Shown here piece after piece: positions 1 through 14,044 of a DNA stretch of 58,525 bases. The notes beneath the pieces are model-generated. The model was not told the DNA's origin. It saw only the letters and a program-made list of their open reading frames with translations, and made no database searches. The stretch's first letter is position 1. Every line of letters begins with the position of its first letter. A program made the position numbers and the translations under genes. The stretch spans positions 1-58,525 of the forward strand of contig JAIPHP010000005.1 of assembly GCA_021735165.1 (NCBI GenBank), read 5' to 3'. The DNA is from Candidatus Woesearchaeota archaeon (GTDB lineage Archaea > Nanobdellota > Nanobdellia > Woesearchaeales > 21-14-0-10-32-9).

Positions 1-152
1 ATTTGATTTGAAAAAACATTTCGTTATTAATTCTCCCACCCAAAAAATCAATTTTTACTCTGCGAAATTTTTTCACTTCGTGAAAAATCGTTGCACTATT
101 TCTTGTCCTCATTTCATTCGGATACCTTAACAGCGATTAAACTCAATCGAAT
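1..152. other. attC-like site 0 (partial), left edge of window
   Basis: Tail of a cassette-boundary linker. It contains a hairpin at 72-90 (TTTTTCAC, loop, GTGAAAAA), a GTTGCAC motif and the conserved core at 127-134 and beyond (TTAACAGCGATTAA), ending in AATCGAAT at 145-152. The next cassette starts at 147. The upstream partner box lies outside the window, so the array probably continues leftward. Confidence 0.55.
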
Positions 153-300
153 TTTCACTTTATGTTCTTTTAGAAAAAGAACCAAAAAAAGAGTTGGGGG
201 CTAGTCTTCCAGACATATACACTCACTACGCTCGAAAATTATCATTCAAGTTGAAGTGTAAGAAAACTTTATATACAATATGCTTTAAATAAAATATATA

Positions 301-1335
301 ATGAAAAACAATCTATCAATTATTACAACATATAGTATAGGTCATTTCTATGTTGATTTTATTTGTTCGTTTGTTTTATCATTAATAATATTTCAAAATA
401 CAAATAATGTTACATCAATTGCAAGTTTGGTCGTAATATATAATATAATTGCTTTTGGAACACAACCTTTTTTTGGATTCCTTATTGACCATTATAAAAA
501 ACCAAAAATAGGGGCAATTTCTGGATTATTAGTTTCAACTATTGGATTGGTTTTCTTTTTTAATCCTATTATCACTACAATTCTATTAGGAATCGGAAAT
601 GCAATTTATCATGTAGGTGGCGGAGTTGTTGCGCTAAATTTAGAACCTTCAAAAGCAAAATATCCTGGAATCTATGTAGCACCTGGTGCTTTAGGTTTAT
701 TTCTTGGAGGGTTATTAGGTTATTTTCAAATTCAATCATGGATATTTTTAGCTATTGGAATAATCCTAAGTATAGCACTCATTACATTAATCTACAAAAT
801 ACCTCTTCCAAAAACACCCAAATTCAAAGAGAAAAAGATTAACCTAATTAGTATTGTTTTATTGCTCCTTTTAGTTTCAGTTTGTATGCGTGCATTAATA
901 GGTTATTCTCTAAATTTAGAATGGAAATCTTTATTCATTTTAGGTCTAATATTAACTACTGCAATAGCTTCTGGTAAATTTTTTGGAGGTTTTTTAGCAG
1001 ATAAATATGGGTTCATGAAAGTAGGTATGGTTGGTTTAATTGTAGCAGCACCATTATTAGTCTTTTTTCAATCTATACCAATAATTGTGTTTATTGGAGC
1101 TTTTTGTTTTAACCTAGTTATGCCAATCACATTAACAGCGCTTGCAGAAGCAATTCCAAATTACAAAGGTTTCGCATTTGGACTAACAACATTATCATTA
1201 GTTATAGGATATTTATTATTCCTAAGTTTAAAGAATTATTTAGTTATTGGACAAATATTTACAGCAATAGTGATATTTATAAACATAGGAAGTCTATATT
1301 TAGGATTGAAAAAATATGAGGAGATGAAAACATGA
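301..1335 (+). CDS. MFS-type membrane transporter, short (344 aa)
   Basis: Polytopic membrane protein with two motif-A-like loops, GFLIDHYKKPKIG near residues 58-70 and GGFLADKYGFMKVG near 227-240, one per half, as in the major facilitator superfamily. It is shorter than the usual 400 residues, so one or two helices may be lost. The substrate cannot be read from the sequence. A TATA box at 268-275 lies about 29 nt before the ATG, suggesting a leaderless transcript. It overlaps the next gene by 4 nt (ATGA), so 301-1894 is one operon. It is carried by cassette 1 (147-2107). Confidence 0.8.
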   Translation: MKNNLSIITTYSIGHFYVDFICSFVLSLIIFQNTNNVTSIASLVVIYNIIAFGTQPFFGFLIDHYKKPKIGAISGLLVSTIGLVFFFNPIITTILLGIGNAIYHVGGGVVALNLEPSKAKYPGIYVAPGALGLFLGGLLGYFQIQSWIFLAIGIILSIALITLIYKIPLPKTPKFKEKKINLISIVLLLLLVSVCMRALIGYSLNLEWKSLFILGLILTTAIASGKFFGGFLADKYGFMKVGMVGLIVAAPLLVFFQSIPIIVFIGAFCFNLVMPITLTALAEAIPNYKGFAFGLTTLSLVIGYLLFLSLKNYLVIGQIFTAIVIFINIGSLYLGLKKYEEMKT

Positions 1336-1526
1336 AAAATTACAAAATAGGAATGGGATTAATTTTAGGAATTATGGCTACAACGCCTTTTGTTGCAGCA
1401 GACATTAAAGCAGGTCCAGAAATATACATCATACCAATTGTAGGTTTAGCATTAATTGGTGGATTTATAGTTGGAGCAGTATTTTTAATAAGATGGATTA
1501 TTAGAAAAATTAAGAATAAACAATGA
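1332..1526 (+). CDS. small two-helix membrane protein (64 aa)
   Basis: Unrecognised small protein. Residues about 5-23 are a hydrophobic segment ending in AAD, possibly a signal peptide or helix. Residues 31-57 are a second hydrophobic helix followed by a basic tail. ATGA overlaps on both sides join it to the MFS gene and the next membrane gene, so a role as partner of the transporter is an inference from context. Confidence 0.65.
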   Translation: MKNYKIGMGLILGIMATTPFVAADIKAGPEIYIIPIVGLALIGGFIVGAVFLIRWIIRKIKNKQ

Positions 1527-1894
1527 ATTCATTCATTTTAATATTTCAATCCATTATTATTCCGTTAATACTAACAATAGGAATTGAATTAGGTATCTGG
1601 AAAGTCATTCAATTGACATTTAAAAAATATAATTTTCATTATTTCTGGCTTTCTGTTATTGCAATAAACATAGCAACAAATCCAGCATTTAATGTAATTT
1701 CTTCAATTTTAGATCCTACAAGAACATTATTTATATTAGAAATGATTTTAGAAATATTAATAATATTTATTGAAGCAACCATACTATACATAATTTACAA
1801 AAAAGAATTTAGCAAATTTCTTATCCTTTCAAGTATAATAAATTTATTTTCTTATGGTTTAGGATTACTACTCTTTACACCATTATGGATTTAG
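1523..1894 (+). CDS. hypothetical membrane protein, about four helices (123 aa)
   Basis: No family recognised. Four hydrophobic stretches can be seen (about 4-25, 38-58, 70-90, 99-119). It is translationally coupled to the preceding gene by a 4-nt overlap. It is the last gene of cassette 1, followed by the inner inverted-repeat arm at 1904-1919 that matches 254-269. Confidence 0.65.
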   Translation: MNSFILIFQSIIIPLILTIGIELGIWKVIQLTFKKYNFHYFWLSVIAINIATNPAFNVISSILDPTRTLFILEMILEILIIFIEATILYIIYKKEFSKFLILSSIINLFSYGLGLLLFTPLWI

Positions 1895-2020
1895 TATGAT
1901 TACAAGTTTTCTTACACTTTATTCTTGTTCTTTATGGTACTTCGTACTTGATAGAACGCCCCCAACTCTTTAGTCCTTCGGACAATTACACTCGCTACGC
2001 TCGAAATTATATAAGTGAAA

Positions 2021-2113
2021 ATTCGACTTCTTCGGATTTCTTTGAAATCCTCGACCCACGCTGCGCTCTCACTTCGTTCGGGGGAGTTTAACAAGGATTA
2101 TAATCAATTCGAG
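2021..2113. other. attC-like site 1
   Basis: Linker of 93 bp. Box R'' is ATTCGAC (2021-2027), the end of arm AAGTGAAAATTCGA (2013-2026), which is complementary to the start of cassette 1 at 147-160. Inside are hairpin GGATTTC-ttt-GAAATCC and the conserved core TTTAACAAGGATTA, ending in AATTCGAG (2106-2113). The next cassette starts at 2108. Confidence 0.6.
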
Positions 2114-2121
2114 AGCCCGAG

Positions 2122-2823
2122 CTAAATATCTTCTTCAGAATTAGAATTATTCAGAATAAAAGTTTTGATGTCTCCACCGCAAAATTTTTGAACTAATTCA
2201 CTCAATTCCTCAATTATTTTTTCTACATCTTCTCTCGAAGTTGGCGGAAGTCCTTCAACAACTAAAGCGACATTTTTTGTTTCTTCCGTCATTTTTGACT
2301 TGTCGCATTCTCTCCAATTCCATCTTCTACATAGGACTTCCTTATCATCAACATAAACAACTTCTCCTTCTTTAGGATTCTTTGTTTCTTCGGAATTGAG
2401 CTCAGTAAAAGGTTCATCTCCTTGAGCAAATTTCAATGTGATATTTCCATCGATTTTGTCGGTGTCATCTCCGCCAACAGGAATTATATTTTTTATTGAA
2501 ATATAATTGTAGATATCTACAACTTTGTTAATGTGGCGGAGTTCTATTCCCTCCAAAATCATTCTGTATAAATTTTCCACAGAACACTTATATTTTTTTG
2601 GCTTGGCTCCAAATGAAGAATATGCTTTTCGCCAAGCATCTATTTTTGGGTTCTGTGATAATGTTTCTGTATTGAAATTTGCTTTTATTTCTTGAACCTT
2701 TTCCTTGATTAAATTAAGAATATCTTCATTGTTCCCTTTATTATCAATTCCTTTAGCTGTCACGATACCGATATTCAAATCTGGAAACTGTTCAAAAATT
2801 TTGCTATCAATTTTAAATTTCAT
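2122..2823 (-). CDS. B3/B4 tRNA-binding domain protein (PheT-like domain)
   Basis: The protein of 233 aa resembles free-standing B3/B4 domains, the editing domain of the phenylalanyl-tRNA synthetase beta chain. Characteristic stretches are KIDAWRKAYSSFGAKPKKYK (about 104-123), IIPVGGDDTDKIDG and LCRRWNWRECDKSKMTEET near 160-180. Stand-alone members are thought to act on aminoacyl-tRNA or to bind amino acids, but the substrate here is unknown. It is the only gene of cassette 2, read opposite to cassettes 1 and 3. The stop codon abuts the left cassette arm at 2108-2122. Confidence 0.75.
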   Translation of the reverse strand: MKFKIDSKIFEQFPDLNIGIVTAKGIDNKGNNEDILNLIKEKVQEIKANFNTETLSQNPKIDAWRKAYSSFGAKPKKYKCSVENLYRMILEGIELRHINKVVDIYNYISIKNIIPVGGDDTDKIDGNITLKFAQGDEPFTELNSEETKNPKEGEVVYVDDKEVLCRRWNWRECDKSKMTEETKNVALVVEGLPPTSREDVEKIIEELSELVQKFCGGDIKTFILNNSNSEEDI

Positions 2824-2877
2824 GATAATATTAAGAGTTAATCAAAACTTTATAAATATTGCTGAAACGCTCGGGCT

Positions 2878-2964
2878 CTCGAACTCTGAATTTTTCCCTT
2901 CGGGAACGTTGCACTAAAATTCAGCCCTAACGGGGATTATAACAAGGATTATACGCAATTGAAT
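2878..2964. other. attC-like site 2
   Basis: Linker of 87 bp. R'' is CTCGAAC (2878-2884), ending the arm at 2869-2883, which is the exact reverse complement of the cassette 2 start at 2108-2122 (15 bp). The interior has a stem CTGAATTTT/AAAATTCAG with nested CCC-ttc-GGG, then core TATAACAAGGATTATA, ending in AATTGAAT (2957-2964). Confidence 0.65.
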
Positions 2965-3006
2965 ATTTGCACAAAACTTTTATATTGTAACAATTTTACT
3001 AATTAT

Positions 3007-3378
3007 ATGATTGAAATCTCAAAATCTGTAATTCAAAAAGATGGAAAGTTTCTTCTTTTGAAAAGAGCTTCACATTCTAAAAGTTATCCTGACATGTGGT
3101 ATTTTGCAGGAGGCAAACATGATCCTGGTGAAACTCCAACTCAAGCAGTCATCAGAGAGACAAAAGAAGAAACTTCATTTGATATAGAACCTGGAAATGA
3201 AATCAGAACGGAAGAATATCATGATGAAAAACATGACTTATTATTTCATTATTTTACTCCAAAAGTACTTTCTGGAGAATTAACTTTAAGTCCTGACCAT
3301 TCTGATTTCAAATGGATATCTAAAGAAGAAATGAAAGATTTTGAATTACATCCGTCCGTAAAATTGTTCTTTGAATAA
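3007..3378 (+). CDS. Nudix hydrolase (cassette 3)
   Basis: Contains a full Nudix box, starting GGKHDPGETPTQAV and continuing RETKEETSF (GX5EX7REUXEE pattern), which binds Mg2+ for pyrophosphate hydrolysis of nucleotide derivatives. The substrate is unknown. The start at 3007 is chosen because a TATA box (2978-2985) lies about 26 nt upstream; an upstream in-frame start would fall inside the cassette arm. The gene is the only content of cassette 3, bounded by perfect 14-bp arms at 2959-2972 and 3379-3392. The stop codon directly abuts the right arm. Confidence 0.85.
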   Translation: MIEISKSVIQKDGKFLLLKRASHSKSYPDMWYFAGGKHDPGETPTQAVIRETKEETSFDIEPGNEIRTEEYHDEKHDLLFHYFTPKVLSGELTLSPDHSDFKWISKEEMKDFELHPSVKLFFE

Positions 3379-3386
3379 GTGCAAAT

Positions 3387-3454
3387 ATTCAACTGTGCCT
3401 TCGGCATTTTTTCTTGCAGAAAAAACGTATAACAGCGATTATACACAATTAAAT
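3387..3454. other. attC-like site 3
   Basis: Shortest linker (68 bp). R'' is ATTCAAC (3387-3393), a perfect RYYYAAC. Internal hairpins are TGCC-ttc-GGCA and TTTTTTC-ttgca-GAAAAAA, followed by core GTATAACAGCGATTATAC (a 6-bp inverted repeat). It ends in AATTAAAT (3447-3454). Confidence 0.65.
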
Positions 3455-3550
3455 TATCACTATTTTCTTTTTAGAAAAAAGAAACAAAAAAGGGAGTCCT
3501 AATAAAAAATGAGTAAATGTTATAAACTAATAAGTTGAAATATATTCTAA

Positions 3551-4819
3551 ATGCAAGAAACTATTTCAAAATCAAAAACTGAGGAAAACTTTGATAGGTC
3601 ATTAACTGCTTTAGGTTTGTCTATGGAGATGAAAACAAATCCTGAATTAATTGCTCAAATTTTACAAGAAATGAGACTTGATGAGTTTCAAACTAATTTT
3701 GAGCCAATGAACCTATTCTTTAGAAATGTACTTGATAAACCTCAAAGTTTAACTCCTATTTTTCAAAATATAGCTTCTTCTTTAGAACAAAAACACCCTG
3801 CAATTATTGAATTTGCAGATTTATGTTTGAAGAATAATTGGTTTAAAAAATCAGAACATGTAATATATTCAGTTAATGTCTTATACATTTTGGAAAAATT
3901 AACTTCTGCTATGTGTAATAATCATGATTTCTTTATGGAGATACATAACCATTACAGAACTCAAGAAAAAAAATTAGGTTTAGATACAATTCATCCAATT
4001 TCTACCTTTTTTAATGCACTAAAAATGTCTAGAGATTATTTTAAAATAGCTAAATCTTTTTCACTTGACCCATTGATGATATATTCCAAAATTTTGAGAG
4101 GTTTAGATAAATCTCGAATTTCAAAAAAGGAATTAAAAAATATGTTCAAAAACAAAGAACTTAACTATGTTGAATATAAATTACTTTCAAAAAATCATGA
4201 AAAACATGCAGCACATATTCTTGAATTAGTAGGAATTAATATTTATGAAGCAGGAATCACAGAATACAAAAATGGATTGAAAGTAAACTCTATTTCTGCA
4301 CATGAACTCTCGGAAGATTTAGTAAGTATTTGTCCAAAAACAATTTTCAAAAATAAAAATATTTATCCTGAAAATAACAAATCTTCTTTTTATACTTCTG
4401 TTTTTGACAGCAATAATTTATTTCCAACTGTTGAAGTAAGTCAAGAATGGGCTAGTCTTTACACTTCATGGAATATGGCATTTATTTTAGGCGATTTGAC
4501 AGATTTAGATATGATTTTCCCAAAACTTTTTTTACCTTCTTTATTAGATTCAAATCCTGAAGATTTTTTAGGAGTTAGATTTATTTCTTTATGGTTATCT
4601 ATCAATCATGTGATTTATAGAAAGGATTCTAAAAAAGAAATAACTGGTCCATCTAATAAAAGAGAAATGTCTCAAGCATGGGGGGAAATTAATAAGAAAT
4701 ATGCTTTTAAAATTGCAAAAAAAGAACTTCATGAAGATTCAAAAGTTTTGATGAAACATTATAATAAATTTTTTTCACATCCTTTTTTTAATTTACTAAA
4801 GTTGATTGTAAAATTTTGA
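3551..4819 (+). CDS. hypothetical protein, 422 aa (cassette 4)
   Basis: No recognised family. It looks soluble, largely helical and rich in K, E, N and F, with no signal peptide or clear transmembrane segment and no obvious catalytic motif. A TATA-like box near 3520-3527 precedes the ATG by about 27 nt. It is the sole gene of cassette 4, surrounded by outer arms (3449-3460, 4890-4901) and by an inner perfect 17-bp inverted repeat (3491-3507, 4829-4845). Confidence 0.7.
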   Translation: MQETISKSKTEENFDRSLTALGLSMEMKTNPELIAQILQEMRLDEFQTNFEPMNLFFRNVLDKPQSLTPIFQNIASSLEQKHPAIIEFADLCLKNNWFKKSEHVIYSVNVLYILEKLTSAMCNNHDFFMEIHNHYRTQEKKLGLDTIHPISTFFNALKMSRDYFKIAKSFSLDPLMIYSKILRGLDKSRISKKELKNMFKNKELNYVEYKLLSKNHEKHAAHILELVGINIYEAGITEYKNGLKVNSISAHELSEDLVSICPKTIFKNKNIYPENNKSSFYTSVFDSNNLFPTVEVSQEWASLYTSWNMAFILGDLTDLDMIFPKLFLPSLLDSNPEDFLGVRFISLWLSINHVIYRKDSKKEITGPSNKREMSQAWGEINKKYAFKIAKKELHEDSKVLMKHYNKFFSHPFFNLLKLIVKF

Positions 4820-4895
4820 TAGTTTATATTTTATTAGGACTCCCTAGTCCTTCGGACAATTTGTCTCGCCTTTGGCTCGGAATCTATTGGTGATA

Positions 4896-4999
4896 ATTTA
4901 ACTTCTCCGTTCCTCGACTTCGTCTGCGGTACTCGACCCCGCTGCGCTTTCCTCCTTTCAGTCGTCGGGAGACATAACAAGAATTATACGAAATTGCAA
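4896..4999. other. attC-like site 4
   Basis: Linker of 104 bp. R'' is ATTTAAC (4896-4902), a perfect RYYYAAC and the end of an arm complementary to 3449-3460. The interior contains GCTGCGC and CAGTCGTCGGGAGAC stretches shared with sites 6, 7 and 10, then core ATAACAAGAATTAT, ending in AATTGCAA (4992-4999). Confidence 0.65.
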
Positions 5000-5042
5000 A
5001 CCAGCCAAAAGAATTATAAAATCCGCCTCTTAACTAATTATT

Positions 5043-5351
5043 ATGAAATACAATAAACTTATCAGAGATAAAATCCCTGAAATAATCAGAAGTAAGGGAG
5101 CAGTTCCAATTACACATATTGCATCTGATGAAGAATATCAGCAAAAATTAAAAGCTAAACTTCAAGAAGAAGTTGATGAATTTTTAGAAGATAATAATGA
5201 AGAAGAACTTGCCGATATTCTTGAAGTAATTTATGCATTATGTGATTTATATAATTTTAATAAAGATAAATTGGAACAGCTCCGAATTGATAAAGCTGAA
5301 AAACGAGGCGGATTTAAAGATAAAATAATTCTTGATGAAACAAAAGAGTAG
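5043..5351 (+). CDS. MazG-like / PRA-PH family nucleotide pyrophosphohydrolase (102 aa)
   Basis: Small all-alpha NTP pyrophosphatase-like protein. It begins KYNKLIRDKIPEII, typical of the phosphoribosyl-ATP pyrophosphohydrolase-like subgroup, and has EEVDEF (about 41-46) and EELADILEV (53-61), matching the metal-binding EExxE and ExxD motifs. Likely house-cleaning of noncanonical nucleotides; the exact substrate is unknown. A TATA box at 5012-5019 gives a leaderless start. It fills cassette 5, whose arms (4994-5006, 5351-5363) hug the gene; the right arm starts on the last base of the stop codon. Confidence 0.8.
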   Translation: MKYNKLIRDKIPEIIRSKGAVPITHIASDEEYQQKLKAKLQEEVDEFLEDNNEEELADILEVIYALCDLYNFNKDKLEQLRIDKAEKRGGFKDKIILDETKE

Positions 5352-5357
5352 GCTGGT

Positions 5358-5435
5358 TTGCAACTCAAGGGGACGCTGCGCTTTCGTTGCTATCGCTCCT
5401 CACCCTCGTATAACAGGGCTTATGTCTAATTCAGA
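5358..5435. other. attC-like site 5
   Basis: Linker of 78 bp. R'' is TTGCAAC (5358-5364), ending an arm that is the reverse complement of 4994-5006. Core ATAACAGGGCTTAT is followed by AATTCAGA (5428-5435), where cassette 6 begins. Confidence 0.6.
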
Positions 5436-5474
5436 ATTCGGGCTAAAAGTGTTAAATATAGAAACCGAAAGATT

Positions 5475-5816
5475 TCACTTATTCATAGAACCAATTAAAT
5501 ATCCAATCCCGTATCCTACAGCAGTCGCTACTCCAGATTTCAAAGTATTTTTCCCTGTCTCTTTTACTACAACTTCATTAGAAAGTGATTCTTCAAGACT
5601 TGGAACATGCCTTTTTCCAAAATGTCTGGCTGTTAGCATAGCGATAGGAGTTATAGTTGTAGCAAAAGTAGTTGGAGCATAAGTTGCAATTTGCTCAGTT
5701 GTGCCAACATCTACTCCTTGAGCATTATTATACCCAACATAAGCTCCCGCAAGTAACGGAACAACTTCATAGGGTATTACTGCTTTATTATTTATTGATA
5801 AGATATTCAATTCCAT
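5475..5816 (-). CDS. hypothetical small membrane protein (113 aa, cassette 6)
   Basis: Unrecognised. Two hydrophobic, Gly/Ala/Thr-rich stretches (about 43-62 and 92-109) suggest membrane insertion; the C-terminal one has a GxxxG-like GYGIGYLIG. A TATA box on the minus strand near 5839-5848 lies about 27 nt before the ATG. It is the single gene of cassette 6 (arms 5430-5443 and 5888-5901). Confidence 0.6.
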   Translation of the reverse strand: MELNILSINNKAVIPYEVVPLLAGAYVGYNNAQGVDVGTTEQIATYAPTTFATTITPIAMLTARHFGKRHVPSLEESLSNEVVVKETGKNTLKSGVATAVGYGIGYLIGSMNK

Positions 5817-5895
5817 GATTATAGCAATTAATTGGTTCCTTATAAATCTTTCGGTTTTTTTACTACTCTTAAGTTAATATTGAATGCGCCCGAAT

Positions 5896-5985
5896 TCTGA
5901 ACTCAAAATCCTTTGAATTTTGCCCCGCTGCGCTCTCCTCCTTTCAGTCGTCGGGAGACATAACAGGAATTATGTGCAATCGGGC
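5896..5985. other. attC-like site 6
   Basis: Linker of 90 bp. R'' is TCTGAAC (5896-5902), ending the arm complementary to 5430-5443. Hairpin CAAAAT/AATTTTG, the shared GCTGCGCTCTCCTCC stretch and core ACATAACAGGAATTATGT (6-bp inverted repeat) follow, ending in AATCGGGC (5978-5985). Confidence 0.65.
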
Positions 5986-6037
5986 TACGGCGGGCTTTTG
6001 AAAACCTTTATTAATCTCTTTCAATTCAATGCTTATT

Positions 6038-6952
6038 ATGATAAGAGCAAGACTTCAATATTTTGTTAAAGATAGAAAATCGTTCGAGGATAAAGTATTG
6101 CCTTATGTTTTTGGTGGTGGAATATTCTATAAAGAAGTTGACGCAAAACCCACATTTGAACAAAATCAACTTTCTGTAGAAATTGAAACAAATACTCTTT
6201 CACAATTAGTGACTGTATCTACAGGAATGCTTCGATATAGTCCAAATTGTGTTTTGGAAAAAATAGATGTTCTCCATACGGATAAGATTGTCTCTAAAAC
6301 CTCTGGAAAATTTAATATTGAACGCGCTTTGCTTGGTATTATTATTAAACCTTCATTATCATTCAAATCAACAATAGCAAAGCAGCTTATCGAAGCATCA
6401 CAAAAAAAGAAAGTTGATTTTGTAAAAGATGATGATGCCAGCGAATACTCCAAAAAAGAAGCAGAAGAAATTTTAAAATTAGCGGGTAATGTTTCTTATC
6501 TTCAAAAAATCGTTGAGCCACAGAAAATAGTCAGTGATTTTTCTATGATTGTTCCTTGGGTTGATGGTTGGAAACTTCTTCAAGACATAAGTGAAAAATC
6601 TGTAACTGCCAGTCATTGCGCAGTTTTATCACCGCAAGTTTCATGGTATTCCCATATTATTTTTTCAAGACTTGCAGGTGCTTCTTTGGTTATTGTTCCA
6701 GATCCTGCTTTTGATGAAAAATTTAATCTGAAACTTGCTTTAGAAGCTGCATCAAAACAAATCAGCGGTGCTAATTCCACAAGATTAATTATTAGTGGTG
6801 GCATCAACCCAAGCAGAATAAAGAATTTATTGAAAGAAGCCGATAAGAAACATCACAAATATGTGGGTTTTGCTGTTGGTTCATGGGTGCTTTCTAACTC
6901 CAAAAACATAAGTGAAAATATTGAAGTCTTGAAGAAAGAGATAATGAAGTAA
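6038..6952 (+). CDS. short, divergent RuBisCO-like protein (304 aa, cassette 7)
   Basis: The order of motifs follows the RuBisCO large-chain barrel: GIIIKPSL (K104, where the IKPKLG lysine lies), FVKDDDAS (K130, D132, D133, where the carbamylated Lys and Asp/Glu metal ligands lie), SHCAVLS (H193, the HR site, but with Cys for Arg), ISGGINP (S253-G255, phosphate site) and AVGS (280-283). The loop-6 segment with its GK lysine is absent and the protein is about 130-150 residues shorter than RuBisCO, so it is at most a RuBisCO-like protein with another reaction or none. The start at 6038 is preferred over 6029 because a TATA-like box is centred near 6010. Call made by eye only. Confidence 0.55.
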   Translation: MIRARLQYFVKDRKSFEDKVLPYVFGGGIFYKEVDAKPTFEQNQLSVEIETNTLSQLVTVSTGMLRYSPNCVLEKIDVLHTDKIVSKTSGKFNIERALLGIIIKPSLSFKSTIAKQLIEASQKKKVDFVKDDDASEYSKKEAEEILKLAGNVSYLQKIVEPQKIVSDFSMIVPWVDGWKLLQDISEKSVTASHCAVLSPQVSWYSHIIFSRLAGASLVIVPDPAFDEKFNLKLALEAASKQISGANSTRLIISGGINPSRIKNLLKEADKKHHKYVGFAVGSWVLSNSKNISENIEVLKKEIMK

Positions 6953-6963
6953 CGCCCGCCTCC

Positions 6964-7058
6964 GCCCGACTTCTTCGCTCCTTTCAGTCACTCGACCACG
7001 CTGCGCTCTCCTCCTTTCACTCACCAGGACAAATAACAGCAATTATGTCTAATTTTAT
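6964..7058. other. attC-like site 7
   Basis: Linker of 95 bp. R'' is GCCCGAC (6964-6970), ending an arm (6954-6969) that matches the cassette 7 start (5980-5995) at 13 of 16 positions. Core ATAACAGCAATTAT is followed by AATTTTAT (7051-7058). Confidence 0.6.
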
Positions 7059-7082
7059 TTTAAGCCCTAAAAAAGCAAAATA

Positions 7083-7090
7083 TTTATATA
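7083..7090 (+). promoter_or_regulatory. TATA box of toxin-antitoxin operon
   Basis: TTTATATA centred about 27 nt before the antitoxin ATG at 7113. It supports that start over the in-frame ATG at 7092, which would lie between the TATA box and the expected transcription start. Confidence 0.6.
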
Positions 7091-7112
7091 TATGGTCACT
7101 TATATAGTTATT

Positions 7113-7331
7113 ATGGCAACAACAATATCGGTAAGTCAAGAATTACTCTCCAAATTAAAAGAGAGAAAGATGTATGACAAAGAATCCTACGAAGAAGTGA
7201 TATGGGATGCTTTAGAGGATTCCATGGAATTATCTGAAGAAACAAAAAAAAGAATCAAACTAGCTGAAGAAGATATAAAAGCAGGAAGAATTTATTCTCT
7301 TGAAGATGTTAAAAAGGAATTAGGAATATAA
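7113..7331 (+). CDS. VapB/RHH-type antitoxin (72 aa)
   Basis: Starts MATTISVSQELLSKLKERK, a ribbon-helix-helix-like N-terminus common in archaeal antitoxins, with an acidic helical C-terminus (EEDIKAGRIYSLEDVKKELG) of the kind that wraps a RelE/ParE toxin. It lies 57 nt upstream of the toxin start in the same cassette (8), as antitoxins usually do. It should bind its own promoter and neutralise the toxin. Confidence 0.8.
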   Translation: MATTISVSQELLSKLKERKMYDKESYEEVIWDALEDSMELSEETKKRIKLAEEDIKAGRIYSLEDVKKELGI

Positions 7332-7388
7332 AATGCACTTAAAAATTGAAAATTTTTGGTGCACAAAAAATCACGAGGTGATTTTTTA
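7331..7388 (+). promoter_or_regulatory. double hairpin and Shine-Dalgarno between antitoxin and toxin
   Basis: TGCACTT-AAAAATT-GA-AATTTTT-GGTGCA forms one hairpin (about 7334-7363). AAAAAATCAC-GAG-GTGATTTTTT forms a perfect 10-bp second one (7365-7387). The strong ribosome-binding site GAGGTG (7375-7380) is the loop and 3' arm of the second hairpin, so toxin translation could be masked by RNA folding. Confidence 0.6.
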
Positions 7389-7640
7389 GTGTTTGATATT
7401 TTTTTTACAGCCGAATCAAAGAAAGTTCTAAATAAGCTAAATAAAGAAGATTCTAAAAGAATTATTTCTACATTAGAAAGATGTAGAATCAGACCACATG
7501 CTCATGTTAAAAAATTAATTTCTTCCCCATATTTTAGATTACGAGTTGGAGACTATAGAGTAATTCTTGACATTAAAGCAGGTAAACTTTTAATTATTGT
7601 TGTTGAGATAGGACATAGAAAAAATATTTACAAATCATAA
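7389..7640 (+). CDS. RelE/ParE-family toxin (83 aa)
   Basis: The C-terminal core PYFRLRVGDYRVILDI followed by LLIIVVEIGHRKNIY is diagnostic of RelE/ParE fold toxins, many of which cleave ribosome-bound mRNA. The GTG start at 7389 is chosen because GAGGTG lies 8 nt upstream; an upstream TTG at 7356 would place that ribosome-binding site inside the gene. It is paired with the antitoxin at 7113. Toxin-antitoxin pairs are typical stabilising cargo of large integron arrays. Confidence 0.8.
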   Translation: MFDIFFTAESKKVLNKLNKEDSKRIISTLERCRIRPHAHVKKLISSPYFRLRVGDYRVILDIKAGKLLIIVVEIGHRKNIYKS

Positions 7641-7749
7641 AACTCTTTGATTTTTAGGATGCAAAGAAAAATCTTATTTTTCTTGCACAAAAAATGCAAA
7701 TCATTTTTCCGTGCCAAAAATATTTTATTTTTGAGCATAATGGGCCTAA
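7641..7749. repeat. tandem short hairpins downstream of toxin
   Basis: Several perfect short inverted repeats in a row: AAGAAAAAT/ATTTTTCTT, AAAAAATG/CATTTTT and AAAAATA/TATTTTT, joined by TGCAC-like linkers. They belong to the same style of repeat as the neighbouring insertion element. Confidence 0.55.
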
Positions 7750-7754
7750 AATAA

Positions 7755-7980
7755 TGAAAATCGCTGCTCCGAGTCTGCTAAGAAACTAAAAGTTTCTTGC
7801 ACACAGAAATCAAAAATGATTTCTTCGTGTATCTCCGCCCTAAATGCACAGAAACAAAGTTTCTAACACAACAAAAATGAACGAACATTTTTGTGCAGTT
7901 CGGAGTACGACAAAAGCAAAGCTTTTGTGTACAATAAATGCAAAGCATTTATTTGTATTAAACCCCCTTCGCTAGCGCGC
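7755..7980. mobile_element. hairpin-rich insertion element, copy A (226 bp)
   Basis: It shares its start (AAAATCGCTGCTCC) and end (CCCCCTTCGCTAGCGCGC) with copy B at 44797-45024, and is flanked by AATAA at 7750-7754 and 7981-7985. Removing the element and one AATAA rebuilds GGGCCTAAAATAAAAC, the expected right arm and AAC box of cassette 8. The interior is a string of hairpins with CAAAG-type loops (AGAAAC-aaa-GTTTCT, ACAAAAGC-aaa-GCTTTTGT, AATAAATGC-aaa-GCATTTATT). It has no gene, so it is non-autonomous. Confidence 0.7.
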
Positions 7981-7981
7981 A

Positions 7982-8077
7982 ATAAAACTCTGCAGGTTTC
8001 GACTTCGCCGACCATTGCACTAACTCTTGGTCGAAACAAGTTTCGACAGACATAACAAGTGGTAGACGTAATTGCAA
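7982..8077. other. attC-like site 8 (interrupted upstream)
   Basis: Linker of 96 bp after the element. R'' is ATAAAAC (7982-7988), then hairpins around TTGGTCGAAACAAGTTTCGAC, a degenerate core CATAACAAGTGGTAGAC, and AATTGCAA (8070-8077). The left arm of cassette 8 (7055-7067) pairs with 7742-7754 at 12 of 13 positions. Confidence 0.5.
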
Positions 8078-8154
8078 GACGGCACTAAAATACAAAAATA
8101 GTAAGAAGGCACTTCTAACCCCCAACCATCCGCCCCAACGCGGAAGAATCTGTT

Positions 8155-8634
8155 CTAATAATCTCCAGGCGGAATTCCTTTCCAAAAATCGGGATCTAAA
8201 CGTTCAATTCCAAGTTTTTCATCCCTATACTTTGCTAATTTACCATTAATTTCTAAAGCTGTTTTGTAAGGAATATCAAATCTTACGCGTCCTTTTTCAT
8301 CTTCAGATTCTCTCATTATCCCTTGCTGAAGTGAAGCGTATGGTCTTGTTTTTGGGATTACTTCTACCCAGACACCTAAATCGTTTGCATCTTCAGATAA
8401 TTCTCTTTTGATTCCAGCAATATCTGTAAATGTTTTGTAACTTACTCCGTATCTGCCATCGTTGAATCCTTGATATACAGCTATTTTTCTAATCTCTTGT
8501 TCCAAATGATCGGCAGACCTTCCATACATTTCATAGGTAGTATTTTTTGGAATTTCGGTTTTGTCACATCCAACTACCCCTAAAGCTAAAGCCACTACCA
8601 AAGCAATTCCACTAAGTGTTTTTTTGATTGTCAT
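8155..8634 (-). CDS. lipoprotein, unknown function (159 aa, cassette 9)
   Basis: N-terminal signal MTIKKTLSGIALVVALALG followed by lipobox VVGC (Cys23) and a soluble domain of unknown family with no recognised catalytic residues. The protein would be exported and lipid-anchored; a prolipoprotein diacylglyceryl transferase gene is present at 38074. A TATA-like box on the minus strand at about 8655-8664 gives a leaderless start. The base composition is less AT-rich than most neighbours, consistent with recent acquisition. Confidence 0.7.
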   Translation of the reverse strand: MTIKKTLSGIALVVALALGVVGCDKTEIPKNTTYEMYGRSADHLEQEIRKIAVYQGFNDGRYGVSYKTFTDIAGIKRELSEDANDLGVWVEVIPKTRPYASLQQGIMRESEDEKGRVRFDIPYKTALEINGKLAKYRDEKLGIERLDPDFWKGIPPGDY

Positions 8635-8748
8635 ACATCCGTTATATGCTGCGAGTATTTAAATCTTTCTATTGTTCACCACTTAGGAGAGACTACATAG
8701 AACCTGCCATCCAGAAGTACCCTCTCAAAAACATTAAAACGTTCCCTC

Positions 8749-8833
8749 TCACAACTCTGAAATTTTGCCTCGGCATCGTTGCACTAAATTTCAGCCCTAC
8801 GGAGAATACAACAGTAATTATGTCTAATTCAGA
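8749..8833. other. attC-like site 9
   Basis: Linker of 85 bp. R'' is TCACAAC (8749-8755), then stem CTGAAATTT/AAATTTCAG with nested TGCC/GGCA, degenerate core ACAACAGTAATTAT and AATTCAGA (8826-8833). No arm matching R'' is found at the start of cassette 9 (8072), so this cassette may be a fusion of two. Confidence 0.5.
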
Positions 8834-9197
8834 ATTCGGGCTTAAACGGATTTTGTATCAATCTTCCTCTGTAAACAGAATTTCCATTTACTCCTGCTCC
8901 GCAACCGCAAGTTTTTCTTCTATCTACAAAATCCTTTGGATCTAATCCATATTTAAGAACTTCATCTTGAAATTCTCTATCGCAACAATCCCTATTTTCA
9001 ACTTTGCTTAAACCATATTTTTGAGCGTTTTCCTCAAGCCAACCATCGCCGCCAGTAAACATAATATATGCTTCTGAATCATGACCCTCGCAACTATTTG
9101 TTGTTCTATAACAATGTTTCCATAGTTGACCAACTAGCCCTCTTATTCCTTCATCTATTTCTAACCCATCCATAGTTGCGAGCATATTTCTTTTCAT
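8829..9197 (-). CDS. Cys-rich hypothetical protein (122 aa, cassette 10)
   Basis: Unrecognised family. Conserved-looking features are HCYRTTNSCEGHD (about 28-40), a CC pair (71-72) and CGCG (97-100), which could bind a metal. A TATA-like box near 9219-9228 on the minus strand supports the ATG at 9197. The last codons (PEF, stop) are encoded by the cassette arm itself. Confidence 0.65.
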   Translation of the reverse strand: MKRNMLATMDGLEIDEGIRGLVGQLWKHCYRTTNSCEGHDSEAYIMFTGGDGWLEENAQKYGLSKVENRDCCDREFQDEVLKYGLDPKDFVDRRKTCGCGAGVNGNSVYRGRLIQNPFKPEF

Positions 9198-9282
9198 ATA
9201 CTATTATGTTTACTCGACCACATATAAAGTTTTCGTATTGTTACTACTAATTAGTTGCTAGTTTTTAAGATGGAGCCCGAAT

Positions 9283-9372
9283 TCTGAACTCAAAATCCTT
9301 CAGATTTTACCCTGCTGTGCTCTCCTCCTTTCAGTCGTCAGGGGACTTAACAAGGATTAAATTCAATTCGGG
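9283..9372. other. attC-like site 10, right end of array
   Basis: Linker of 90 bp. R'' is TCTGAAC (9283-9289), ending an arm (9274-9288) that is the reverse complement of 8828-8842. Core TTAACAAGGATTAA is followed by AATTCGGG (9365-9372). No matching arm is found further right, so this is taken as the array end. From 9373 to 9486 I see nothing else. Confidence 0.6.
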
Positions 9373-9486
9373 GCTCACCCCCACAGAGGTTAAAACCAAA
9401 AATTCTAATGTTGTTAAATACAAAAAGAAATAAATCATATCCTAATAAAACGACATTGCGGCTCAATAGGCAGTAATTCTTATATA

Positions 9487-11747: not shown

Positions 11748-13844
11748 TTAAGTTTTGTCTTTGAATTGTACTTCTTGAACCAATAATGTTGCTTCTATTT
11801 CTGTTTCTTGTATTATCTGGCTTTTTTTGATTTCTATTCTTTTTTTGAAGAAAGGTGCGTCTAGAACAAGAGATTCATATTCACCCCCTTCTCCAGCTAT
11901 GTTGAAACCATTTTTCTTATTTAATAGTTTTAGCCGTTCCAAGTGGTTTTGTGTTATTTTTTCTCCGAGCCAACCAACATGTAAACCCTCTGCAGCAATT
12001 TTTATTATTCTGAAATCAAATCCTTTATTTATAAGGAGTTGAACTTCTTTTTCTTGATCCATGTGCCATAGCGGACTAAAACATTTTATTCCGAGTTCTT
12101 CACATATGTTTTCTATTCTTTTTCTTTGATAGTTACTATATAATGCGCCTGTTATTATGCCTTCTATTTTGTATTTTTGCATAGAGTTTTTTATTGCTTC
12201 TTTTAGTTCTTTTAGTTCTTTTTCTTTTTCTCCTTTAGTATCTTTTAGTATTATGGGAATATTTGCTGCTTCTGCTTGTATTATTGCTAAGTGCGTGTTA
12301 GGACCGTGATACATGTAGGAGTCTTTATTTTGGCTTTGTATTGTTATAAAGCATCGTATTTCATAGTTTTGATCCATCATTATTTGTGTTGCAAGAAGCG
12401 AGTCTTTTCCTGTGCTTAGTAGTACGCCTAGTTTTACGTTTCCTTCATTGTAAAATTGTTTTAGGTATTGTGCTTTTGTTTCTTTACTTTTATTTGCTAA
12501 TTTTTGTATTGCTTTATCAAAGTTAGATCCGTATTGTGCTGCTTTTTTCTTGCGTTCAGCATATTTTTCTGGGAGGCCTTGTTTTTTTGCTATTTTTCTT
12601 AATATAATCTTTTTTTGTTCGCTGTTTAATTTTAGGTTTTCAGGTATTGTTAACGCATATTTTACCAGTTGTTTGTCTAAGAATGGAAGTCTTAGTTCTA
12701 TTGTTTGACTCATTGTTATTACATCGTCTCTGTATAGATCTCGTTCGTAGATTTTTCTTAATCCTGCTAAGCATTCTTCATTTATGTCTTGTGAGTTTTC
12801 ATGTCTTTGATATCCTGCAAATATTTCTTCGCTTCCAAGACCCGAAAATAGTATTTTTACGCCATCTTCTTTTGCCATTTCTGAACTTAAAAAAAAAGGT
12901 AATGCAACTCCTGCTTTTACTACGTTGTTGTCCTCTATTAAGGGCAGTATTTTTTTTAGATATTCTGGAACTTCATCAAGTGGTATTTCTTTTATTTTTA
13001 GTTCGAATCCTAGTTCTTTTGCGGCTTTTTTCGCCCATTCTGTGTCTTCTGCGTTTTTTAGTCCAGGTTCTTTTAGTGCTGCTGTATAGCAAGTGAATGG
13101 AATCCCTAATTTTTTTAGTTTGTATGCTATGTACGTGGAATCTATTCCTCCTGAAAATAGTATTCCTATTTTTTTGTCTTTTATTATTCTTTTTTGTATT
13201 GCTTTTTCTATGAGTGTTTCTGTTTTTTGTACTATTTGTTCTTCTTGTGTTTCCGGGTTGCCTAAAACTTTGAAGTATTCTCTGTCGTATTCTTTTAGTT
13301 CTTTGTTTTGTATATCGTACATCAGTATTTTTCTTGGGTTTAGTTCTTTTATGTATGCTCTGTCTAATTCTTGAGAAAGTAGTGCTTTTCTTTCGCTTGC
13401 AAAAGCAAATTTGCCTTCGGGGTCATGGTAGTACCATAAGGGTTTTACTCCTATTATGTCTCTTGCTAGGAATACGTGCTGAATTTCTTTGTTCCATAAT
13501 GTGAGTGCATAAACTCCGTCGAGTTCTTCAAGTGAATTGTGGAGGTCATGACTATTTTTTAAAAAATTAAAAAGAACTTCAGCGTCGTTTTTTCCTTTTA
13601 ATTCATATTTTTCTTGTAATTCTTTCCAGTTGTATATTTCGCAGTTTGTTGCAAAGATAAATTTTTCATTTTCTAAGGGTTGAGGTATTTTGTCAATTAT
13701 TGCATGAAGGCAATGCCCTATACATCCATTTTGATTTTGAATAGTATTTGAAGAGTCTTTTCCTCTGTATTCTATTATTTTTATTCCTTCTTTCGTTTTG
13801 TTTTCGTTATCTTCAAAATTGAAGAACCCTATTATCCCACACAT
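11748..13844 (-). CDS. asparagine synthetase (glutamine-hydrolysing) fused to Dph6-like ATP-PP loop domain (698 aa)
   Basis: Starting at MCGIIGFF, Cys2 is the glutaminase nucleophile (class II amidotransferase, about 1-190). Residues 205-450 form the asparagine synthetase domain with PP-loop SGGIDS (231-236). Residues 470-698 form a second PP-loop domain with STGKDS (477-482), YMYHGPNTH, GALYSNYQR, PLWHMDQE and GEGGEYESLV, which match diphthine-ammonia ligase (Dph6). The longer upstream reading frame is rejected because Cys2 must follow the initiator Met. The fusion could supply ammonia from glutamine to the Dph6 domain; the target EF-2 gene lies at 20070. Confidence 0.85.
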   Translation of the reverse strand: MCGIIGFFNFEDNENKTKEGIKIIEYRGKDSSNTIQNQNGCIGHCLHAIIDKIPQPLENEKFIFATNCEIYNWKELQEKYELKGKNDAEVLFNFLKNSHDLHNSLEELDGVYALTLWNKEIQHVFLARDIIGVKPLWYYHDPEGKFAFASERKALLSQELDRAYIKELNPRKILMYDIQNKELKEYDREYFKVLGNPETQEEQIVQKTETLIEKAIQKRIIKDKKIGILFSGGIDSTYIAYKLKKLGIPFTCYTAALKEPGLKNAEDTEWAKKAAKELGFELKIKEIPLDEVPEYLKKILPLIEDNNVVKAGVALPFFLSSEMAKEDGVKILFSGLGSEEIFAGYQRHENSQDINEECLAGLRKIYERDLYRDDVITMSQTIELRLPFLDKQLVKYALTIPENLKLNSEQKKIILRKIAKKQGLPEKYAERKKKAAQYGSNFDKAIQKLANKSKETKAQYLKQFYNEGNVKLGVLLSTGKDSLLATQIMMDQNYEIRCFITIQSQNKDSYMYHGPNTHLAIIQAEAANIPIILKDTKGEKEKELKELKEAIKNSMQKYKIEGIITGALYSNYQRKRIENICEELGIKCFSPLWHMDQEKEVQLLINKGFDFRIIKIAAEGLHVGWLGEKITQNHLERLKLLNKKNGFNIAGEGGEYESLVLDAPFFKKRIEIKKSQIIQETEIEATLLVQEVQFKDKT

Positions 13845-13889
13845 ATTATTTAGAAAAGAAATTCTATTTATAAAGATATACAAATAATT

Positions 13890-14044
13890 GGGCTCTGTCC
13901 GAAAAGTTATTGCTAGCTTGAAGCAAAATTGAGATGAGCACATTGACAACGTCAATAACGCCGGTGCTCATCGGTAAAAATTCATACTGCAAAGCAGATG
14001 ATATATCTTTCCAGCGATAAATCAAAATATTCCAGACAGAGCCC
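13890..14044. mobile_element. MITE-like element, 155 bp
   Basis: Perfect 10-bp terminal inverted repeats GGGCTCTGTC (13890-13899) and GACAGAGCCC (14035-14044) are flanked by near-identical 8-bp direct repeats, AAATAATT (13882-13889) and AAGTAATT (14045-14052). An internal inverted repeat GATGAGCAC/GTGCTCATC lies in the centre. It is too short for a transposase, so probably mobilised in trans; the 8-bp duplication is what several DDE families, including IS6, produce. Confidence 0.75.

Follow-up and report, generated by a model that had tools for sequence, protein, structure and literature searches.

The question raised by this locus is how far the RuBisCO fold can be reduced, and whether a gene for such a protein can travel as a single-gene cassette. 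In this study, we analysed a stretch of 58,525 nucleotides (the window) comprising positions 1 to 58,525 of contig JAIPHP010000005.1 (assembly GCA_021735165.1) from a Candidatus Woesearchaeota archaeon of the order Woesearchaeales. The initial annotation, made from the letters alone, had described a very short RuBisCO-like protein (RLP) at positions 6038-6952, carried as a cassette. Our best overall explanation, which we regard as somewhat more probable than all others together, is that the gene encodes a compact, highly divergent RLP of the enolase or isomerase type that is moved as a single-gene cassette. The gene and its predicted promoter are placed as follows.

6029 to 6952, forward strand: gene of the compact RLP, 307 amino acids (alternative start at 6038, 304 amino acids)
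6007 to 6014, forward strand: TATA-like box TTTATTAA, predicted by eye as the cassette's own promoter

The open reading frame (ORF) comprises 307 codons in an intact frame, closed by the stop codon at 6950-6952, and is a real coding gene that contains neither an internal stop nor a frameshift. The guanine-plus-cytosine fractions at codon positions 1, 2 and 3 (0.45, 0.33 and 0.22) resemble those of adjacent genes; the codon score is +0.12 in frame, matches adjacent genes and is negative in every other frame. The ATG at 6038, chosen in the initial annotation, gives 304 residues and lies ~27 nt downstream of the TATA-like TTTATTAA. Such a distance is usual for a leaderless archaeal transcript, so the start at 6038 is plausible and perhaps better than that at 6029. 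Residue numbers below follow the 307-residue form.

Homology was evaluated using family models and profile alignment. RuBisCO_large was the sole Pfam match at E ≤ 1 (E 0.0013, residues 97-137) and fell under the curated cut-off. NCBIfam returned sub-threshold matches only, led by OiaX and RuBisCO; against the curated scores of the known RLP equivalogs, OiaX reached 16 bits of 700 and MtnW did not match. Searches with phmmer among PDB chains, with PADLOC and with PHROGs returned no match. A profile search had been proposed as a check on the initial annotation, and was run with 38 RuBisCO and RuBisCO-like sequences from Woesearchaeales. The protein aligned to this profile over residues 98-269 (hhalign E 3.7e-8, score 62.4); the reversed protein scored 14.2, and all 200 shuffles lay lower than the real sequence, the highest at 26.8. 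The score was 39.9 with residues 97-137 masked and 39.0 for residues 138-307 by themselves, and a second collinear RuBisCO-like segment was found at SGG. The N-domain by itself gave no significant alignment to the profile; its strand-helix pattern aligns in order with RuBisCO relatives. We consider the protein almost certainly homologous to the RuBisCO superfamily.

The predicted structure consists of two domains.

6041 to 6277, forward strand: N-domain, about residues 5-83, with a ferredoxin-like strand-helix-strand pattern (AlphaFold model)
6335 to 6871, forward strand: eight-stranded barrel, residues 103-281, lacking alpha-3 (AlphaFold model)

The single-sequence AlphaFold model had a mean predicted local distance difference test score (pLDDT) of 37.6 with an unusable barrel, and only its N-terminal part, similar to ferredoxin-like PDB folds (E about 0.003-0.04), was suggestive. 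The N-domain of RuBisCO has a ferredoxin-like topology. When the 38-sequence alignment was supplied, pLDDT rose to 74 with a predicted template modelling (TM) score of 0.76, and the model contained the N-domain and eight barrel strands (103-106, 131-134, 156-160, 171-174, 191-194, 220-223, 252-256 and 277-281). Every barrel helix except alpha-3 was kept, and confidence was low at residues 28-40 and 164-168. A predicted fold other than an N-domain plus TIM barrel had been named beforehand as grounds for refuting the claim; both parts are present in this model. Foldseek against the PDB placed RLPs first (3qfw with E 4.9e-12, 1tel and 2qyg), followed by form III RuBisCOs and MtnW. The model is partly circular because the alignment behind it consists of RuBisCOs, and we take the model and its PDB matches as consistency, not proof; the sequence comparisons, which did not use the model, point the same way. 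A whole beta-alpha unit was initially thought to be deleted, and this reading was dropped since the model has eight strands. In the protein as modelled, the N-domain is shortened, the eight-stranded barrel is missing alpha-3 and a C-terminal extension is lacking.

The initial annotation had reported the motifs IKPSL, KDDD, SHC, SGG and VGS in RuBisCO order; they occupy residues 106-110, 133-136, 195-197, 256-258 and 283-285, in that order. The motifs with assigned active-site equivalents are the following.

6344 to 6358, forward strand: IKPSL, with Lys107 equivalent to Lys175 and Ser109 replacing Lys177
6425 to 6436, forward strand: KDDD, residues 133-136, equivalents of Lys201, Asp202 and Asp203, with Asp for Glu204
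6611 to 6619, forward strand: SHC, residues 195-197, at the His294/Arg295 position (Arg to Cys) or, alternatively aligned, at His298
6794 to 6802, forward strand: SGG, residues 256-258, equivalents of Ser379-Gly380-Gly381

Equivalences were taken from alignment columns with RuBisCO relatives, in spinach RuBisCO numbering. Lys107 (Lys175), Lys133 (Lys201), Asp135 (Asp203) and Ser256-Gly257-Gly258 (379-381) are kept, while Asp136 stands for Glu204, Ser109 for Lys177 and Ile at the His327 position. The metal ligands of the superfamily are present as a carbamylatable Lys133, Asp135 and Asp136 (Glu to Asp), as had been claimed. The N-domain segment of Glu60/Thr65/Trp66 is absent, and Met67 occupies the Asn123 column. 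Loop 6 had been described as missing; the GxxGK sequence after beta-6 (Lys334) is indeed absent, but Lys231, eight residues past the end of that strand, could substitute for the loop-6 lysine. The proposed replacement of the arginine of the His-Arg pair by Cys holds if His196 corresponds to His294. Both MAFFT and hhalign instead place His196 opposite His298, an alignment that would delete strand beta-5. Because the model keeps residues 191-194 as this strand, it favours pairing His196-Cys197 with His294-Arg295 as structurally more sensible.

No complete relative seen is as short as this protein. The shortest RuBisCO-family ORFs of the order that are not cut by a contig end have 385, 389 and 399 amino acids, and the shortest chain in the inspected PDB list has 378 residues. 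Together with the profile alignment, the model and its PDB matches, this size comparison bears out the description of a very short RuBisCO-like protein. Of 193 genomes sampled from the order, 53 encode a RuBisCO-family protein. In a 40-sequence tree the protein sat on a branch about 10 substitutions per site long and had no supported place, so that at present it is assigned to no known form. Two short, divergent Woesearchaeales RLPs (L040:5267-6421, 385 amino acids; L041:5093-6289, 399 amino acids) have both the KPK and the KDDE motif replaced, including the carbamylated Lys. A divergent 485-residue RLP (L043:2017-8811) lies amid genes that by eye resemble sugar-phosphate enzymes and may mark a carbohydrate pathway not yet described.

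Outside the source genome, no intact copy turned up in 353 genomes of the order that passed a completeness filter, nor in samples of 378 genomes from the class and 371 from the phylum. Searching GTDB contigs and IMG/VR with peptide patterns returned no intact relative, the pattern YSPxxVLEKID recovering only the relic contig JACPID010000025.1 (from the same order, and recorded as a Woesearchaeota metagenome-assembled genome, MAG), and tblastn of phages and plasmids found no relative. Two relics were detected, in two other families: G230 retains residues 52-90 at 64% identity, and G619 retains residues 269-306 at 60% identity and ends KNIPENIEALRRAMFI-stop where the RLP ends KNISENIEVLKKEIMK-stop. 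Because the G619 relic ends at the RLP's last residue, the compact C-terminus is a family trait and not a local or fresh truncation. Differences between the RLP and both relics amount to 0.49 per synonymous site versus 0.20 per non-synonymous site, which shows past purifying selection on the RLP lineage; the relics themselves are dead, and no cassette arrays were detectable around them. Weak matches in three further genomes were rejected, since that in G351 resembles RNase HII and those in G390 and G349 contain stops.

Among characterised relatives, the best structural match is 3qfw (TM score 0.63 on query length, at the Foldseek E of 4.9e-12), an R. palustris RLP, probably DeepYkr-clade RLP1 (5-methylthioribulose-1-phosphate 1,3-isomerase). 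This protein is likewise small for the superfamily, with its PDB chain of 378 residues, and shares the barrel and core motifs; however, identity is only 15%, our protein is about 70 residues shorter, and no methionine-salvage gene was seen in the neighbourhood of its gene, the only part of the genome inspected for one. The Form IV-Photo RLPs (C. tepidum 1tel/1ykw and R. palustris RLP2 2qyg) are the next-best structural matches, and L038, a member from Woesearchaeota, has IKPSL in common with our protein and comparable wording at beta-6 and beta-8; a single-sequence comparison with L038 was insignificant, and the tree gave no supported grouping. Form III-type Woesearchaeota RuBisCOs of the adenosine monophosphate (AMP) pathway have the same fold and give the best profile match, whereas they have 420-480 amino acids, the full motif set and a pathway that is missing from the source genome.

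The second part of the question concerns the setting of the gene, for which the following features are relevant.

69 to 9378, forward strand: cassette array of 11 sites and 10 cassettes (model R1 matches)
5956 to 5977, forward strand: left RLP site, with arm AGACATAA (end of the previous cassette), spacer CAGGAA and arm TTATGTGC (start of the RLP cassette)
5981 to 5995, forward strand: left arm CGGGCTACGGCGGGC of the cassette-specific inverted repeat
6954 to 6968, forward strand: right arm GCCCGCCTCCGCCCG of that repeat, 13/15 complementary to the left arm
6970 to 7064, forward strand: conserved cassette-end element (model R1, E 5e-18)
7029 to 7050, forward strand: right RLP site, with arm ACAAATAA (end of the RLP cassette), spacer CAGCAA and arm TTATGTCT (start of the next cassette)

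Eleven copies of the conserved element (model R1, E 8e-20 to 1e-11) delimit cassettes in the order MFS, B3/4, NUDIX, unknown, PRA-PH/MazG-like, unknown, RLP, antitoxin-like plus ParE toxin, unknown and unknown. Each site has the core arm8-CARNRA-arm8, and the two arms within one site match poorly. The start and end arms of the same cassette match at 8, 8, 7, 4, 8, 8, 6, 8, 2 and 6 of 10 positions (permutation p about 0.001), cassettes 4 and 9 being without matching arms. The array of G098, a genome of the same genus, gives 8, 8, 8, 7, 8, 7, 8, 7 and 7 (permutation p about 0.0002). An inner, second inverted repeat surrounds the gene, with exact stems of 13-17 bp in 7/10 cassettes of the window and a median of 7 for mismatched pairs. 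For the RLP cassette, arms TTATGTGC and ACAAATAA match at 6/7 innermost positions and the 15-bp stem is imperfect (13/15 paired); its two borders fall within 5964-5969 and within 7037-7042, giving a unit of about 1073 bp. Similar site elements were present in 19 of 30 related genomes. The claim of a cassette is strongly supported by the sites delimiting the gene, by arm and stem matching between a cassette's own ends and by the second array in the genus. By eye, most cassettes in 69-9378 seem to carry their own TATA-like box just before the start codon; most bacterial integron cassettes have no such promoter box.

Recombinase genes adjoin two arrays. The G098 array (contig C29, 76135-86204) opens next to a tyrosine recombinase gene that points away from it (L110:15185-16000); in the source genome an array on contig C1 (8179-12318) lies near a tyrosine recombinase gene (5579-6418). 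Both recombinases match the archaeal XerA model best (XerA_Arch, NF040815) and score below the cut-off of the IntI model TIGR02249, whose match is broken between about 180 and 240; the extra patch of integron integrase IntI was not found in them. The source genome also has an array on contig C2 (69602-72822). Its L112 (contig C13, 1614-2411) is a tyrosine recombinase with the best IntI-model score in the first half (E 5e-37) and a stop codon in the second half, and has a weak cassette-site match nearby.

Archaeal integrons with attC sites have been reported in 75 MAGs including Nanoarchaeota (PMC9668308), and our literature search found no paper connecting Woesearchaeota with integrons. Like integron cassettes, the units described here are single-gene, form structured sites from their own ends and include toxin-antitoxin cargo, and the recombinase diverges from the array. 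Unlike them, the arrays mix gene orientations, the core is arm-CARNRA-arm (8-6-8) instead of RYYYAAC/GTTRRRY, and the recombinase is XerA-like without the IntI insertion (by eye, and as a gap in the TIGR02249 match). The sites read WTAACARNRNTTAW with an arm-6-arm core and lack the attC boxes; a standard attC interpretation was dropped, as arms pair within the cassette across the 6-bp spacer. In archaeal dif, a 6-bp spacer separates two arms of 11 bp each (PMC2958812). The inverted arms flanking a 6-bp spacer and the XerA-type recombinase (NF040815) agree with Xer/dif, whereas many sites per genome, cassette-specific arms that match within a cassette and an extra long stem differ from it. The system behaves like an integron but departs from integrons in the sequence features examined. 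It can be described as a widespread Woesearchaeales cassette system with dif-like 8-6-8 cores, complementary arms and stems within cassettes and an adjoining XerA-like recombinase. A XerA-like tyrosine recombinase would excise or insert the RLP cassette at the dif-like sites (8 bp, 6 bp, 8 bp), recombining in the 6-bp spacer, with the arms and the longer inverted repeat belonging to one and the same cassette.

With regard to function, the source genome (1.10 Mb, 31 contigs, 97.9% complete, 0.4% contamination) contains no RuBisCO over threshold. For the supply of ribulose-1,5-bisphosphate, it has neither a ribose-1,5-bisphosphate (R15P) isomerase nor an AMP phosphorylase; phosphoribulokinase was not searched for. 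DPANN RuBisCOs are thought to work in AMP metabolism alongside AMP phosphorylase (PMC8407392), and known RLPs catalyse enolisation or isomerisation (PMC5893883). Enolisation is a reasonable inference for the present protein, and a metal-dependent enolase or isomerase is its most likely function, one that we favour on balance. In the proposed mechanism, Lys133, probably carbamylated, would bind Mg2+ with Asp135 and Asp136; Lys107 or another base would remove a proton from the carbon beside the carbonyl of a small sugar or sugar-phosphate-like substrate; and the enediolate would be reprotonated at another position (isomerase or tautomerase/enolase) and would never meet CO2. A bolder proposal is that the protein represents, as its first intact member, a minimal RLP family with a one-polypeptide active site that dispenses with partner-domain residues and loop 6, and with a reaction new to the superfamily. 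It would be spread in DPANN as a gene cassette by a distinct XerA-driven, integron-like system in which each cassette has its own complementary ends; this is a tentative possibility, clearly short of an even chance.

Several observations weigh against our explanation. The modelled fold, built on a RuBisCO alignment, is not independent evidence; active-site conservation has no intact homologue for comparison; and no adjacent metabolic gene or cassette hints at a substrate. The phosphate-site residues of RuBisCO are mostly lost, and the change of Glu204 to Asp together with a disordered 160-170 stretch could signal decay. A catalytically dead or decaying RLP, in which trimming of alpha-3, loop 6, the N-domain loops and the C-terminus removed function or left a binding role only, would fit the loss of phosphate-site and N-domain residues, the very long branch and the low model confidence at 28-40 and 164-168, and the two relics show that the gene is dispensable. 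Against this stand the undamaged frame and normal codon composition, the selection estimated against both relics, the retained core Lys and Asp residues and the compact C-terminus that the relic makes ancestral, and we regard a dead protein as rather unlikely. The kept equivalents of Lys175, Lys201 and Asp203 would also suit a minimal-size working CO2-fixing RuBisCO, but GxxGK and the equivalents of Glu60/Thr65/Trp66/Asn123 are absent, the His327 position is Ile, and a 98% complete genome lacks R15P isomerase and AMP phosphorylase, which leaves that reading extremely improbable. A TIM-barrel protein of another family, similar to RuBisCO only at the KPS..KDDD stretch, could account for the local, sub-threshold Pfam match and the insignificant N-domain alignment. 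It would not explain why similarity survives masking of that stretch at a score no shuffle reached, why the segment at SGG is collinear, why the N-domain pattern is in matching order or why Pfam offers no other family; the sequence comparisons already make it quite improbable.

The mobility of the gene was weighed in the same way. The spacers might be ordinary dispersed repeats, not recombination sites, and the RLP gene resident, as cassettes 4 and 9 with their unmatched arms would allow. Yet arms and stems match within and not between cassettes in two genomes, similar elements recur across related genomes, two arrays adjoin XerA-like recombinases, and the NUDIX and toxin-antitoxin cargo is typical of cassettes. 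A resident gene is accordingly improbable in our estimation, and the RLP cassette is very probably mobile by site-specific recombination.

The RLP extends a known superfamily by a new variant of minimal size, and the smallest RuBisCO-fold protein seen moves from about 380 down to about 305 residues. It shows that the fold can do without loop 6, alpha-3, the residues contributed by the partner domain and the C-terminal extension, which bears on the possible appearance of ancestral superfamily members that did not fix CO2. The protein also allows a test of whether enolisation is still possible in an active site lacking partner-domain residues. The setting of the gene in a cassette suggests an exchange of metabolic genes among DPANN archaea through an integron-like system that relies on Xer-type recombination; if so, this is a route of gene flow that the literature found does not describe.

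Elsewhere in the window, a gene at 11748-13955 on the reverse strand encodes 735 amino acids, in which an asparagine-synthetase-like domain appears by eye to be fused to a diphthine-ammonia-ligase-like (Dph6) domain.
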